Under the pieces are notes generated by a model, which was given only the letters and a program-made list of their open reading frames with translations, was not told where the DNA came from and searched no databases. Below, piece after piece: positions 10,603 to 40,155 of a stretch of DNA of 64,000 nucleotides. This DNA comes from Pseudomicrostroma phylloplanum (Eukaryota; Basidiomycota; Exobasidiomycetes; Microstromatales). The stretch is from positions 186,001 to 250,000 of the forward strand of contig BCHS01000020.1 of assembly GCA_039545275.1 (NCBI GenBank), written 5' to 3'. The position numbers and the translations under genes were made by a program. Each line of letters begins with the position of its first letter. The first letter of the stretch is position 1.

Positions 10603-11093
10603 GTAGGAGTCCAAGTTCGAACTGAAGCGAAGCAATCGTAGAATCAAAGTCATAGTAGTACCGTTGTCGTTGTCGTTGTCCATGCAGTAGATCACCACAT
10701 CTAGACGGGCTAGTGGGGTTTTTGGGAGCGAGGTGGTGTTTTCTTTCGTCTGCTTTGGCTCGAGTACACAATCGCAGCGACCTTTGTCACCATTGAAGCC
10801 TGCATGAAGGTTGAGCTTGTCGCCGGTGACCTCTTGCATGACTCCCTGCGGTGTGAGGGACGAAGGGTGAGGCTGGCGAGGAGTGAGTGGCACGCCAGAC
10901 TTTTCCGCCTTGGCCCGCCCGCCAATGCCGGTGTGCCGGGTTTCATGCGCCTGCCTCGGCTCGCCTGTCCGCTCCACACTTCCGAAGGTCATACTGAACC
11001 AGACAGAAGACCTTGCCGGTACATCTTCTTTTTCTTCCCCATCACACCATTGTAGACGCTGAGCAAAGAGAGCCTTGGCCGACATCATCGATC
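10603..11093. other. Intergenic region
   Basis: Holds the 3' flank of the seven-helix protein gene, including a short repeated GTCGTT unit at about 10663-10680, then the promoter and leader of the isocitrate-lyase-family gene. No gene is seen. Confidence 0.5.
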
Positions 11094-13206
11094 ATGGCCA
11101 GCAAGCAGATCCTCTCCTCTTCTGGACGCAGCAGTCGAATTCTCTTGGGCCGATCAAAGCCACTTGCCCGCATTGCATCGCCTTCCCTTCGCACTATGTC
11201 CACCTCGCAGCCTCATCATCGCTCTGCCCCTTCCTCGTTAGCTCAGGTGCAGAATGTAGCTGCTACCTCGGCCTTCCCTGCACCTCACCCACTGCGTCTG
11301 CAACCGCCCTCGGCGGAAGAGGAGGCAGCCGACTTCCAGCGTAGCTGCGATGAGGTGCAGGCCTTCTTCGACTCGCCCCGCTTCAAGGGCATCAAGCGGC
11401 CCTATCCTCCCTCTGCCGTGGTATCCAAGCGCGGCTCCATTGCCGCCACTCCACCCCAGTCGTCGCTCATGGCCGACAAGCTCTTCTCTCTGTTGCGCCA
11501 TCGCTTCTCAAAGGGAGAGCCAGTACATACCATGGGCGCAATCGACCCAGTGCAGCAGTCCCAGATGGCCTACCACCAAGAGGTGACCTACGTGAGCGGC
11601 TGGGCCTGCAGTAGTGTCCTCACCACTTGCTCCAACGAGGTCGGCCCAGACTTGGCAGACTACCCTTACACTACTGTTCCCAACCAAGTGCAACGTCTCT
11701 TCAAGGCACAGCTCCACCATGATCGAAAGCACTGGGACGAGAGGTGTGAATTGCCAAAGGAGAAGAGGGAAAAGACACCCTGGGTTGACTATCTCAGGCC
11801 GATCATTGCGGACGCTGATACGGGACATGGAGGATTGACGACGGTCATGAAGCTGGCGAAGCTCTTTGCGGAGAACGGAGCCGCGGCCATTCATCTCGAG
11901 GATCAGCTGCATGGCGGTAAGAAGGTGAGCCCGGGGAGAAGGCCAGGGGATGCAACGTTGAGAGGCCTGTCATACTGATATCACCTCTGCTCCTCGACCA
12001 AATTCAGTGTGGTCACCAAGCAGGAAAGGTCTTGGTTCCAACCTCGGAGCATGTCAACCGTCTCAATGCAACCCGTCTGGCCTGGGACGTCCTCGGTTCC
12101 TCCAACCTGGTCATCGCCCGCACAGACTCCGAGTCCGGCAAGCTCATCTCCAGCAACATCGATGTGCGCGACCACGAGTTCATCAAGGGCGCCTACAACC
12201 TCCCCTCGGACACCCTCTCCCTCGCCGAGAGTCTCTCGAGGGCAGAGAGTGAAGGTAAAGTGGGAGCGCAGGTGGACAAGGTCGAGAAGGAGTGGATGGA
12301 CAAGTGCGACCTCTGCACCTTCGACGAGGCCGTCGCCAAGCACAATGCCTCGAATACATCTGGACTTGAAGAGTACAAGAAGCAAGTGGGAGTAGAGGGA
12401 GGCGTCTCCAACACCCAGGCACGCAGGATCGCTCAAGACATCTTTGGAGCAGAAGGTGTCCCTCTCTGGGACTGGGAAGCGCCCCGCACAAAAGAAGGCT
12501 ACTTCCACTTCACTGGCGGACTTGCTCCGGCCATCAAGCGTGTCAAGATCTTTGCGCCGTATGCTGATATGCTTTGGCTTGAGACGAAGACGCCTGATTT
12601 GAAGGAGGCGCAGGGCTTTGCTAGCAAGATTCACGAGGCGTACCCGGAGAAGATGCTCGTGTATAACTTGAGCCCTTCGTTCAATTGGAGCGCTCATGGC
12701 TTTAGTGGTGAGTAGAAGAGCGAAGCTGTCTTCCCATGTGTGTCATAATGGGCGGCTACTGACTGATGGCCTTATGCTACCTCACTCGTGCACAGAGGAC
12801 GACCTGCGCAACTTCATCTGGGACCTCGCCCAGTCTGGCTTCGTGCTCCAGCTCATCTCCCTAGCCGGCCTACACTCGACGGGAATGATCTCCGCCGAGC
12901 TCGCAAAAGCTTACAAGACAGAAGGAAGTGAGTCTCGGCCCTCCCCTTCCCCCCCGCCACGCCGCCGCTGCTCTCCCTGTGCCATTCGCACCTGATCACT
13001 GACGCCCTCACTTCTTCCTCTCGCTCACAGTGCAAGCCTACGTGAACCTAATCCAGCGTCGCGAAAAGGAGATTGGCACCGATGTGCTCACGCACCAGAA
13101 GTGGAGCGGAGCGGCCCTGAGCGACCGGATGATCCAGACCGTCTCGAGTGGGTCGAGCGCGACGAGTGCAATGGGCGCTGATTCGACGGAGAACCAGTTC
13201 AAGTAG
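11094..13206 (+). CDS. Mitochondrial isocitrate lyase family enzyme, probably 2-methylisocitrate lyase
   Basis: Exons 11094-11924, 12008-12707, 12796-12927 and 13031-13206 encode 612 residues. The first ~36 residues are basic and free of acidic residues, a good mitochondrial presequence. Motifs include IADADTGHGG, HLEDQ, the family signature KKCGHQ (cut by intron 1 between KK and CGH), IARTDSESG, NLSPSFNW and LAGLHST, and a C-terminal HQKWSG. These enzymes cleave (2-methyl)isocitrate to succinate plus glyoxylate or pyruvate. The glyoxylate-cycle isocitrate lyase of fungi is usually cytosolic or peroxisomal, while the methylcitrate-cycle enzyme is mitochondrial. The presequence and the lack of a PTS1 (the protein ends ENQFK) therefore favour 2-methylisocitrate lyase and propionyl-CoA breakdown. 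Substrate choice is inferred from targeting, not from residues. Confidence 0.85.
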
Positions 13207-35308: not shown

Positions 35309-37183
35309 CTAGGTCCCTGCGAAAAGATCCTGCAAGCCAGGCTCAGCAGCCACCACCCTCTCTCGAATCTGGGTACAGCACGACGAACCGCCAGCAGTAG
35401 CAAGGGACACTCTGTCAGTCTTTCGTTCGCTCACTCGCCCATTCGCCCCTCGATGCAGAGACTCACCTCCTCAACCTGCTCAGGCAACACTCGCGTCCAG
35501 ACACGTACCGCCCTGCTCAACTCCTCGGCCAGCTCCTGTTCCTCCTCCTTCTCTTCCCCCCGCTGCAGTGACGGCGCGTCGCTGAGAGCCAGCCAGGCCT
35601 TGATGTACGCAGAGAGACACTTGGAGGTCCATTGTGCTAGTCCGGGGGGAACAGTGGGGAAGAAGGGGTCGTCTTGCTTGCCGGCGGGTTGGTGTTGGTC
35701 TGGTGTGGGCTTCTGCTGCTCGTCTGGCGCTGATGCAGGTCCTGAAGGTGGTGCTGGTGCAGCAGCGGACTCGAGTGCGTCCACACAGGCCTGCTCCACG
35801 AGTACCCTTGAGGCTCGCACTGCCTCTCTCCCCCTCCCGAGCTTTCCCCTCGTCTTCTTCCTCTCCTGCTCCAGGTCCACAAGACCGGCGAATGTCTTCG
35901 AGTCGGGTCTCGAAGAGGTACTGCTCACGAGGCTTTCGTACAACCCGGCGATTTGAGCCGAGAGGAAATCCAAAGCCACGTCCAGGAAGCGGGCAGAGAA
36001 GATTCCGAGCTCGGAGCTGAGGGAGGACAGGTGCATGAAAGTCGTCGTGAGGACGTCCCTCTCCGTTGCTAGCTCTGCTCCTTCTCCGTCCTCGTCCTCG
36101 TCCTCGTCAAGAGTTCCTGGCATCGAGCCGATACTCTTCGGCATGAAGGTCCAAGTACGAAGCACTCCCTCCTGCAGAATCCTCATCAGCATCTCTGCTC
36201 GCTCGCGACTGCGCTCAGGGAGGCTCCTGGCCAAGAGGATCAGGGCGGATAGAGCGTAATGCAATAGACTGGCACCGAGCGGGTGCGAGAGGTACGTGAG
36301 GGAGTTGAAGAGAGTCGTCTGCAGGAGAGGAACCAAGTTTGAGCGCTGTAGCAGCTGGACAGGCACAGCTTGTAGCTTGGCCATGGAGCGGCCTTCGCGG
36401 CCGAGGCCTGCTGCGGAGCGTCGTGTCAGGACTTGCTCGACGAGTAGTCTTGTCCCTCTCTCCCTCCAAACAGGATCCGAGTCCTCGATGAGCGTGACGA
36501 GCGGTGGGACGATCAACGGCCACAGTGCCTCCCATGGCTCCCCCTCTACCCCTGCTCGTTTGCTGCTCGATAGATTCGCAATAATGTCCAAGCACACCTT
36601 CAGAGTCAGATGGCTCCCCGCTCCGTCGCTCCTCGGCATATCGACGCCTGGAATGTCTGCCCGCTGCTTGCCCTTCCACTTTTCCCCCTCTTGGTATGCG
36701 GACATCTTTGCCGAATTCGACAGATGGGCCCGCTCGTGTCGTAGCCTGCCCTCTTCGTTGACTGAACCGGGAGAAGGGGAAGCGAAGAGAGATCGCATGT
36801 GACCCCGCAGCACGTGGCGAATGACAGCGAGACTGGGCCTTACGGAGGAGCTCAAGATAGCTCTCGCGAGTTTTCGTGAGTCAGTCGACGTCCAAGGAGA
36901 CCTCTCAACAAAGCGGGAAGCAGCGATTGTCACGGCTGCTTGGACACTCGTTACCTCGTCAGATGCTTGTGTCTTGAGACGACGACAGCGTATTGTGTGA
37001 GTGTGCAGGGTTTTGACGAGTTTGCGTAACGTGGAAGGGGCGTCGACTGTCCGCCAATGCCTCAATTTCCGCTCCTCTTGGTCGTCTCGCTCAGCTGCAA
37101 AGGCATCACGACCCTCTTGCAATGCCAGCGGCGGTATCAGGGACCTGCACATGCCCAGTATGCTCTTCTGATCTTCCTTGAGC
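35309..37183 (-). CDS. TTI2: TTI2-like HEAT-repeat protein (TTT complex); may be the C-terminal half of a SHQ1 fusion
   Basis: Exons 37183-35467 and 35368-35309. If separate, translation starts at the ATG at 37152 (581 residues including a 19-residue last exon). If joined to SHQ1 through the intron 37276-37184, this is the C-terminal ~590 residues of a 1005-residue protein. The sequence is helical and Leu/Ala-rich, with the TTI2-like block LIVPPLVTLIEDSDPVWRER followed by LVPLLQTTLFNSLTYL and ALSALILLAR. TTI2 works with TEL2 and TTI1 to stabilise PIKK kinases together with HSP90 and R2TP. An acidic insert and a Pro/Gln-rich linker interrupt the repeats. Only 120 bp lie between the SHQ1 stop and the ATG at 37152, too little for a comfortable terminator and promoter. 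Family assignment is probable, not certain. Confidence 0.65.
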
Positions 37184-37272
37184 CTGAGAAAAGGGGAGAT
37201 GCAGGCGCAACAGTGTCAGACCTGTAAACAGAGCTGAATCTCATGTCATTGCAACCGGCTGAGACAACACAC

Positions 37273-38666
37273 CTACCGGCTTTCTTGCTCTCCTCCTTGC
37301 TCAGCTATCACCTCCTCCGCCATTTGCTCCAATAGCTCAAGATCCCAGGATGGCGCCACGTGCGACTTCGTGAGACCTCCTGCTGCCGCTTTGACCTCTC
37401 CTGCCAATGCGGAGAAGGAAGCATCGCTGTCTGCTTGCACTTTGATGATCAGCGGTCTCACCACCGACTCGTTCAGGGTGCCCCATCTGGCGGCTTCATC
37501 GGGTCCTTCTGTGGCCTCCTTCTCCCCTTCGGCGAGGCAGCCTGACAAACCCGAGAGACCATCTAGCACCTCTTGCCTTCCGGACGACAGACGTGATACC
37601 ACATCTTCGGCGGCTCTATGACAGAGCCTCCAGCTGCGATGTAGAGGGTAAGCGAGGCCTCTCCTGAAGCCTGAGCGCATCACAGAGGCTACTGTATCGG
37701 AAGTAGCGAAGGGCGGGCAAGGCGGAGCTGACAGAGACCTTGATAGTGTGCAGAGCAGCCAGGGGTATATCGGCGGTCCTGTGCTGACGAGGAGGGAGAG
37801 ATGGTATGCGTAGAGCAAGTCTAGGAGGACAAGGCGCAGGTGACCAGGCAATGCTGGATCCGTAGCTTCTGCTGTTGAGGCTGAAGAGGAGGACCCTGCT
37901 TCGTACTTCCAGTGGAGCAGCTCGTCGATCTCCCCTTCCTCATCTACAAACGAATCGAGATACGACTGCTCGTCGAAGCGCTCGTCCTCGGCTGCCTCTG
38001 CCGCGGCCTGGTTGGCCTCGAGCTGTTCCGTGCTCAGATTGGCAAACAATTCGCCGACTATTGAGAGAGCTTCGGATGGGTCAGCACACCCTCCAAGGGC
38101 TTCTGACATTACGTTTCTACTCACCACCGCTGGATCTGCTGCTGCGCTTCTCCGCCTTATCCTCCTTAACAGCCGTCATATTCTCCCTCTGCAGTACTTC
38201 CTTGAGAATCGCCTCTGCCTCTTGGTCCTTTTCCCTCTTCTGTTTGGATGGCCCGGCTGTGGCTCCCGAAGAGGACTGAGAGTCGGCGTCTACGAACATG
38301 GTGGGCTGGATGTCCTCCAGGCCAATGAAGTCCAAGCCAGCGTCTGCTTTCCGCAGGTCGACACGGATGACGGAGCCAGAGCGATGTACCTGCTCCACCG
38401 ATGACAGGGAGGCGGGAAAGTGTAGCCTAAGATAAGGGAACAGGAGAAGCAGCGCCCTCGTCAGCAGCTGCTCAGTCATCAGCAGATGTCGCTTCACTGT
38501 CCACTCACGGGAGGTAGTAAGGCGGACATCTTAGCGCGAAGATGGTTTCCTCTACCACTGCTTCCGGCTTGAGATTGGCAGGGGTGAGGGGACACTGCGC
38601 CTCGATGATGACGTGAGTGTCCGTCTGATTCACCCTGAAAGGAGGCGTGACCAATTCGTTCTCCAT
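37273..38666 (-). CDS. SHQ1: SHQ1, H/ACA snoRNP assembly chaperone
   Basis: Exons 38666-38509, 38426-38125 and 38057-37273 encode 414 residues when read to the TAG at 37275-37273. The first ~90 residues are a CS/p23-like domain starting TPPFRVNQTDTHVIIEAQCP and continuing across intron 1 (CPPYYLP-LHFPASL). A charged linker follows, then the SHQ1-specific helical domain: ERFDEQSYLDSFVDEEGEIDELLHW, YPLHRSWRL and the final ELLEQM. SHQ1 holds dyskerin/Cbf5 before H/ACA RNP assembly and is released with the R2TP ATPases. The stop codon is embedded in a GTAGGT donor, so splicing from 37276 to 37184 removes it and continues in frame into TTI2. The gene is divergent from the hydrolase, with only 213 bp between start codons. 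Confidence 0.88.
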
Positions 38667-38879
38667 CGTGGATCAGGCAACGATGGAAAGCAGTGGTATC
38701 GATGCAAGTAGAGACGAGGGAACAGGCGAGAAGCAGAGCACGAAGAGGAACATCCGACTTTTGGAGCGGAGCCATGGACGGACGGAAAGAGCCACACGGC
38801 AGGAGGGGTGCGCTCCAGCCATGCCATGAAGCTATCGGTCAAGCAGCACCTCCTCCTTGGCGCAACTTCATCAAACACA

Positions 38880-40155
38880 ATGTCGTCGAGCAGCGCCGTA
38901 AGATTGTTGCCGAGGTCCACTCGTGGCAGTATCGGTAGCCAGCTGGCTGGAGCCAGTCGCCTGACACGCGCCTTGCCTCAGCTGGCCACACCGGCATCTG
39001 CACCGCATACCCATCAAGCGCTGCTACCACTCCAACGCCTGCCCCGCTCCTTCTCTACTACCCTACACCGAGCAGCAACGACGGACCCCTCTAAATCTTC
39101 CCCTCCAGTCCCTACCGAGAAGCCCGTCTCGCTGGTGTACGAGCTCCACTCTCCTCCCAAGGACGCCTCGCCCAATGCCGGCGGCGCCCAGTCCCTGGTC
39201 GTCTGCCACGGCCTCTTTGGCTCAAAGCAGAACTGGCGCTCCCTCGCCAAGGCCATGGCCAAGCAATTCGGCGTACCCGTATATGCAGTCGATCTACGCA
39301 ATCATGGCACTAGTACGGACCATGTAGAGGGAATGAGCTACAGGGATATGGCTCTGGACCTGCTTGGATTTGTCGAGGAGCACAACCTCGAGAAGATTGC
39401 CCTCGTGGGACATTCCATGGGCGGAAAGGCGGTCATGGCATTTGCGCTTTCGCCTGAGCTGAAGACAGGGACGTTGGAATACCTGGTCAGTGTGGATATG
39501 AGCCCTGCGAGAGGCCCTTTGAGCAAGGAGTTTGAGGAGTACATCGAGGCGATGCTGGCCATTGAGAAGAAGGGATGTCGTACGAGGGGAGAGGCAGATG
39601 AGCTACTCAAGGAGACTGAGCCGGTGAGTGAAAGTGGATCGATGCAAATCAGATGCGTTTGCTCAGACTGACTCGTGTGGAGTATGATTCTCACCTCGAA
39701 TCTCTCTCACAGGACGTTGGGGTACGTCAATTTCTGCTCACCAACCTACAAAAGCCCGAGTCGTCCGATTCGTGGTCCTTCAGGATCCCAGTCTCCTTGA
39801 TCAAGAGGTACATGAGCCAAATCGGCGACTTTCCCTATGAGGCCTCAGACCGGACATGGGACGGAAAGACGTTGTTTGTCAAGGGGACAAAGAGCAAGTA
39901 CATCAATCGGAGGAACAAGCCGCTATGTAACGTGAGTGAAGCTGAACGGACGATGGCACGGAGGTACAATTTGCATCTGTGTAATTGCAGAAGCTCACGT
40001 CTCCCGAGCCCTCCCTCCCTTACCTTACACCGATGGCCTAGGAATACTTTCCCAATGCTGCACACGTAGACGTGGAGGCGGGTCACTGGGTGCAAGCAGA
40101 GAAGCCGCGAGAGTTCATCCAGGCCTTGTCAGACTTCTTTGGCGGGAAGCTGTAG
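38880..40155 (+). CDS. Mitochondrial alpha/beta hydrolase, ABHD11/Imo32-like
   Basis: Exons 38880-39623, 39713-39931 and 40042-40155 encode 358 residues; all junctions fall between codons. The first ~68 residues are rich in Arg, Ser, Ala and Leu with almost no acid and end around RSFSTTLHRA, a clear mitochondrial presequence. The hydrolase core has HGLFGSKQNW (oxyanion loop), VDLRNHG, the nucleophile elbow GHSMGG, and a C-terminal catalytic His in AAHVDVEAGHW. This is the ABHD11/Imo32/Eat1 group; ABHD11 keeps the oxoglutarate dehydrogenase lipoyl groups intact, Imo32 is a mitochondrial processing substrate, and Eat1 makes acetate esters. I cannot choose between these roles from sequence. An upstream in-frame ATG at 38826 is possible; 38880 has the better context. 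Confidence 0.85.

Follow-up and report, generated by a model that had tools for sequence, protein, structure and literature searches.

SHQ1 and TTI2, lying side by side on the minus strand of a 64,000-nucleotide stretch of the Pseudomicrostroma phylloplanum genome (hereafter, the window), are probably one gene of five exons that encodes a single 1005-residue SHQ1-TTI2 protein. In such a protein, SHQ1, a chaperone and RNA-placeholder of the H/ACA pseudouridine synthase with a CS domain and an SHQ1-specific domain, would be followed directly by TTI2, a HEAT-repeat-like subunit of the TTT complex. The original prediction of one spliced gene is supported by the intron signals, the SHQ1 ends of relatives, and the helix model of TTI2, although it is not proven: the atypical GTAGGT donor, the coincidence of the SHQ1 end with that of yeast Shq1, a search for a full-length fusion protein that found none, the separate NCBI models, and a Met at the TTI2 ATG in relatives are points against it.

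We found that the SHQ1 frame ends with ...CGG-TAG at 37273 and that the first TTI2 ATG is at 37152, with 120 bases between them. Removal of a 93-base intron (37276 to 37184, minus strand) takes out the SHQ1 stop and puts SHQ1 and TTI2 in one frame, and the five exons joined by splicing form one open frame of 1005 codons plus a stop (cumulative exon lengths modulo 3 after exons 1 to 4 are 2, 1, 2, and 0). The coordinates, the 120-bp gap, and the five-exon joined frame of 1005 residues had all been proposed before and all matched when the sequence was rechecked. The joining intron, intron 3, would begin at the old SHQ1 end; its donor (context CG/GTAGGT) overlaps the stop, so that splicing to the acceptor CAG at 37186 to 37184 would delete the stop. 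The features of the locus are as follows.

38509 to 38666, minus strand: exon 1, beginning of SHQ1 with the greater part of the CS domain (PF21413 at residues 7 to 90)
38427 to 38508, minus strand: intron 1, 82 nt, GTGAGT donor, CTRAC 35 nt from AG
38125 to 38426, minus strand: exon 2, end of the CS domain and linker (from the frame and Pfam)
38058 to 38124, minus strand: intron 2, 67 nt, GTGAGT donor, CTRAC 24 nt from AG
37277 to 38057, minus strand: exon 3, SHQ1-specific helical domain, complete as far as the solved yeast Shq1 domain extends (PF04925 at residues 227 to 331 and AlphaFold model)
37273 to 37275, minus strand: in-frame TAG within the donor GTAGGT, the SHQ1 end if the next intron is kept
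37184 to 37276, minus strand: intron 3, the candidate joining intron, in phase 2 and 93 nt long, with GTAGGT as donor, 13/13 pyrimidines before CAG, and CTGAC 33 nt from AG
35467 to 37183, minus strand: exon 4, most of TTI2 (PF10521), with ten codons ahead of the ATG at 37152
35369 to 35466, minus strand: intron 4, 98 nt, GTGAGT donor, CTRAC 47 nt from AG
35309 to 35368, minus strand: exon 5, TTI2 C terminus, ending ...AAEPGLQDLFAGT (the Microstroma glucosiphilum model ends ...AAEPSLQDLFAAL)

Two other features of the window were also recorded. An alpha/beta-hydrolase gene on the plus strand (frame 38712 to 39668, first listed start codon a GTG at 38808) is divergent from SHQ1, whose start is at 38666; as the two starts lie between 38666 and about 38808, a short promoter may be common to both. 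Isocitrate lyase at 10998 to 12712 (plus strand) is split over two frames that overlap and whose matches to the profile abut at positions 192-193, so that an intron lies between the frames.

Pfam analysis revealed a CS domain followed by an SHQ1-specific domain in the SHQ1 part (PF21413, E value of 9.2e-10, 38.8 bits, cutoff 27; PF04925, E value of 9.9e-14, 51.7 bits, cutoff 22), as in SHQ1/Shq1p, the H/ACA RNP assembly factor (PDB 3zuz, 3uah, 3zv0, and 3uai), whereas the frame at this locus runs on into TTI2 once intron 3 is removed. A PDB sequence search with the SHQ1 alignment returned three yeast Shq1 sequences. The TTI2 identity, earlier regarded as probable, is now firm, with PF10521 matched across two stretches (E value of 9.8e-26, 91.3 bits, cutoff 25.2). 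This protein shares PF10521 and a helical-repeat model with TTI2 of the TELO2-TTI1-TTI2 (TTT) complex, but it may have no start of its own, and its first helix would follow SHQ1 directly. With the TTI2 alignment as query, the PDB yielded only two matches, both at chance level, and no TTI2 structure. Likewise, no TTI2 chain was present among the best 50 of 587 Foldseek matches to the TTI2 model (0 of the 587 had an E value of 0.001 or lower) or among the matches listed by a second structural aligner; both gave generic HEAT/ARM-type proteins. In a search of the whole genome (17.08 Mb, 20 contigs), the single SHQ1 match was at this locus, and both stretches matching the TTI2 profile were within one frame here. 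As no other match to either family turned up in that search, both proteins seem to be encoded at this locus only.

The same arrangement could be read as two tandem genes, with SHQ1 ending at its natural stop, TTI2 starting from 37152 under a promoter in the SHQ1 coding region and the gap, and the intron signals arising by chance or belonging to a 5'-UTR intron of TTI2; we consider this unlikely. We evaluated the chance of such signals by dinucleotide shuffling of the 120-base gap 20,000 times. Some in-frame GT...YAG join was permitted in 12,771 of the 20,000 shuffles, so that in-frame joining alone is common, a point in favor of two genes, and the argument that it proves a fusion was rejected. 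Requiring in addition CTRAC at 20 to 48 nt and at least 8/13 pyrimidines left 492/20,000 shuffles, CTGAC with at least 11/13 pyrimidines left 29/20,000, and a further GTRRGT donor left 6/20,000, the smallest counts flattering the candidate because the thresholds were picked with it already known. The branch site and pyrimidine tract of intron 3 are thus rare by chance, which argues against two genes. Besides, a terminator, a promoter, and a leader would all have to fit in the 120 bases, a short distance for two separate genes. Five poly(A)-like hexamers were looked for in the gap, and none is present; the gap has two more ATGs, at 37249 and 37244. Pfam analysis of 20 longer frames of the window gave too few named neighbors for a distribution of gene spacing.

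We further compared intron 3 with a set of 41 seed introns taken from 264 kb of the genome (C1:200001-400000 and the window), which were picked by a GTRAGT donor and a CTRAC branch and are therefore not independent of those motifs. Its length (93 nt) and CTGAC distance (33 nt) are within the 5 to 95 percentile ranges of the seed introns (72 to 113 and 12 to 42, respectively). About 95% of these seeds, all of them chosen for CTRAC, have CTGAC as the branch. As regards donors in the 264 kb, open frames are joined at 29 of the 53 GTGAGT sites that have branch and acceptor signals, and the corresponding figures are 2/2 for GTAAGT, 0/3 for GTAGGT, and 0/8 for GTRGGT; the total excess of GT introns over non-GT controls was 26.5, nearly all of it GTGAGT. 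Thus, the CTGAC, pyrimidine tract, length, and phase of intron 3 fit the introns of this genome, whereas the GTAGGT donor is atypical where GTGAGT dominates, and this favors two genes. GTAGGT nevertheless pairs with U1 well enough to be a reasonable donor.

The predicted structures bear on both sides of the junction. The AlphaFold model of exon 3 (mean pLDDT of 73, pTM of 0.77; final helix at 239 to 259) has the SHQ1-specific fold and aligns along its length with the yeast Shq1 domain, through residue 507, indicating that SHQ1 is complete at the TAG. In a fusion, TTI2 would therefore be appended to an intact SHQ1; it is just as possible that the TAG is the true end, and the coincidence with the yeast Shq1 end makes a natural, conserved stop plausible, as two genes would have it. 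In the model of exon 4 (mean pLDDT of 68, pTM of 0.68), residues 1 to 10, encoded by the ten codons that precede the TTI2 ATG, have a mean pLDDT of 90, and a helix at residues 2 to 14 crosses Met11. This result comes from the window sequence alone, as the row of no relative spans those ten residues. It supports the view that the codons just upstream of the ATG are modeled as part of the TTI2 fold, and a confidently predicted helix at this position speaks against a separate TTI2 gene. In the fused protein, the last helix of SHQ1 would probably run into the first helix of TTI2.

Because retention of intron 3 gives a complete 414-residue SHQ1 with the whole SHQ1 domain, a splicing switch is mechanically possible, in which the kept intron yields SHQ1 alone, its removal yields SHQ1-TTI2, and the weak donor tunes the ratio. 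Intron 3 is also the sole one of the four introns of the locus to lack a GTGAGT donor, in line with such tuning. Nevertheless, a stop at the exon-intron boundary follows from any phase-2 GTRA donor, so that no switch is required to account for the arrangement, and a conserved stop is in itself no sign of regulation. Furthermore, an mRNA with a very long 3' region, as the kept-intron form would be, might be degraded. We regard this switch as quite improbable, and in the single-product reading that we prefer, removal of intron 3 would be the rule.

The SHQ1 end in relatives is consistent with one fused gene. Nine SHQ1 relatives were found (P0007 to P0015), the nearest named one being from Sympodiomycopsis kandeliae (57% identity; Microstromatales, Exobasidiomycetes). 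The frames of eight of them (P0007, P0008, and P0010 to P0015) stop at the same alignment column with R as the last residue, and most columns just before this end vary (...EQESR in P0007 and P0008, EQGAR, EIEAR, NAVER in three near-identical frames, and EQEAR). Two close groups are present among these eight rows, which therefore represent about five lineages. In the ninth relative, the NCBI model P0009 from S. kandeliae, the last nine residues fail to align. A phase-2 donor AG/GTRAGT or CG/GTRAGT reads as arginine-stop; hence, an R followed by a stop is what a conserved intron would give. As a control, we inspected the 116 frames in the 264 kb that are 250 codons or longer. R was last in 5 of 10 frames with GTRRGT over the stop (the candidate being one of the 10) versus 18 of 106 others. 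R at the SHQ1 end is thus favored by donor overlap but not diagnostic of it; the stronger claim that R before the stop proves a donor is weakened, since R also ends those 18 of 106 other long frames.

The nearest named TTI2 relative was P0002 from Microstroma glucosiphilum (75% identity; Microstromatales, Exobasidiomycetes). The longest contig is 8060 for both P0001 (TTI2) and P0008 (SHQ1), and 5706 for both P0004 (TTI2) and P0015 (SHQ1). From these equal values, the TTI2 and SHQ1 frames are probably adjacent on one contig in these two relatives. The P0001 and P0004 frames begin at the same Met as the TTI2 ATG of the window, with strong similarity directly after it (about 20 residues are well conserved in P0004, though it is only 39% identical overall), as would be expected if TTI2 started there as a gene of its own; these Met starts, however, were presumably picked by an automatic frame caller. 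The separate NCBI models, P0002 with TTI2 only and P0009 with SHQ1 only, would likewise fit two genes, but both look defective, since about the first 105 TTI2 residues are absent from P0002 and the end of P0009 does not align. No SHQ1 of M. glucosiphilum was among the nine SHQ1 matches. If the fusion is real, it is also a warning that a gene of this kind may be broken in two by gene callers, to which both of these odd models point.

A fusion in related genomes, which the original prediction had proposed as a check, was not found as a protein: the search for the full-length fusion, in which 7990 candidates were scored, gave one match, P0001, over the TTI2 part only. Most protein matches are records resembling unspliced frame calls, in which a fusion could not appear. 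Four pattern scans, two of viral and two of genome contigs, which cover viruses, bacteria, and archaea and are uninformative on fungi, gave 17, 283, 36, and 101 matches and no relative.

We found no report of an SHQ1-TTI2 fusion in titles and abstracts of the open-access literature. Tandem-gene chimeras (read-through transcripts) are similar in that two neighboring frames are joined and the first stop is removed by splicing. In contrast to these, the two partners here would both assist assembly that is linked to R2TP/HSP90, and their joining may have become fixed in a fungal lineage rather than being a rare transcript. Tandem or read-through fusions are already known, but this pair at this junction would be new.

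The description of SHQ1 and TTI2 as R2TP/HSP90 partners is fair for both. SHQ1 keeps RNA off its client NAP57/Cbf5, the H/ACA enzyme, and RUVBL1/2, components of R2TP, strip SHQ1 from this client, whereas TTI2 is connected through TTT, which acts with HSP90 and R2TP on PIKKs (PMC9406135). Joining the two would hold two R2TP/HSP90-linked assembly routes, those of H/ACA RNPs and PIKKs, in a fixed ratio or place, and the fusion may be common to related Microstromatales. A more far-reaching scheme, which we think improbable as a whole, is that the fusion is fixed in Microstromatales and near kin, that the ancestral SHQ1 stop became part of a phase-2 donor, and that the intron choice sets SHQ1 alone against a bifunctional SHQ1-TTI2 that couples H/ACA RNP (ribosome, telomerase) to PIKK (TOR, ATM/ATR) assembly.

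If the single fused gene is real, it would show a simple route to fusion, as a G before a stop (G-TAG, G-TAA, or G-TGA) is already most of a phase-2 donor. Furthermore, two essential factors, one for H/ACA RNP assembly and one for PIKK assembly, would form a single chain in a fungal lineage, and this would be natural "Rosetta stone" evidence that two R2TP/HSP90-linked routes are coupled physically or quantitatively.
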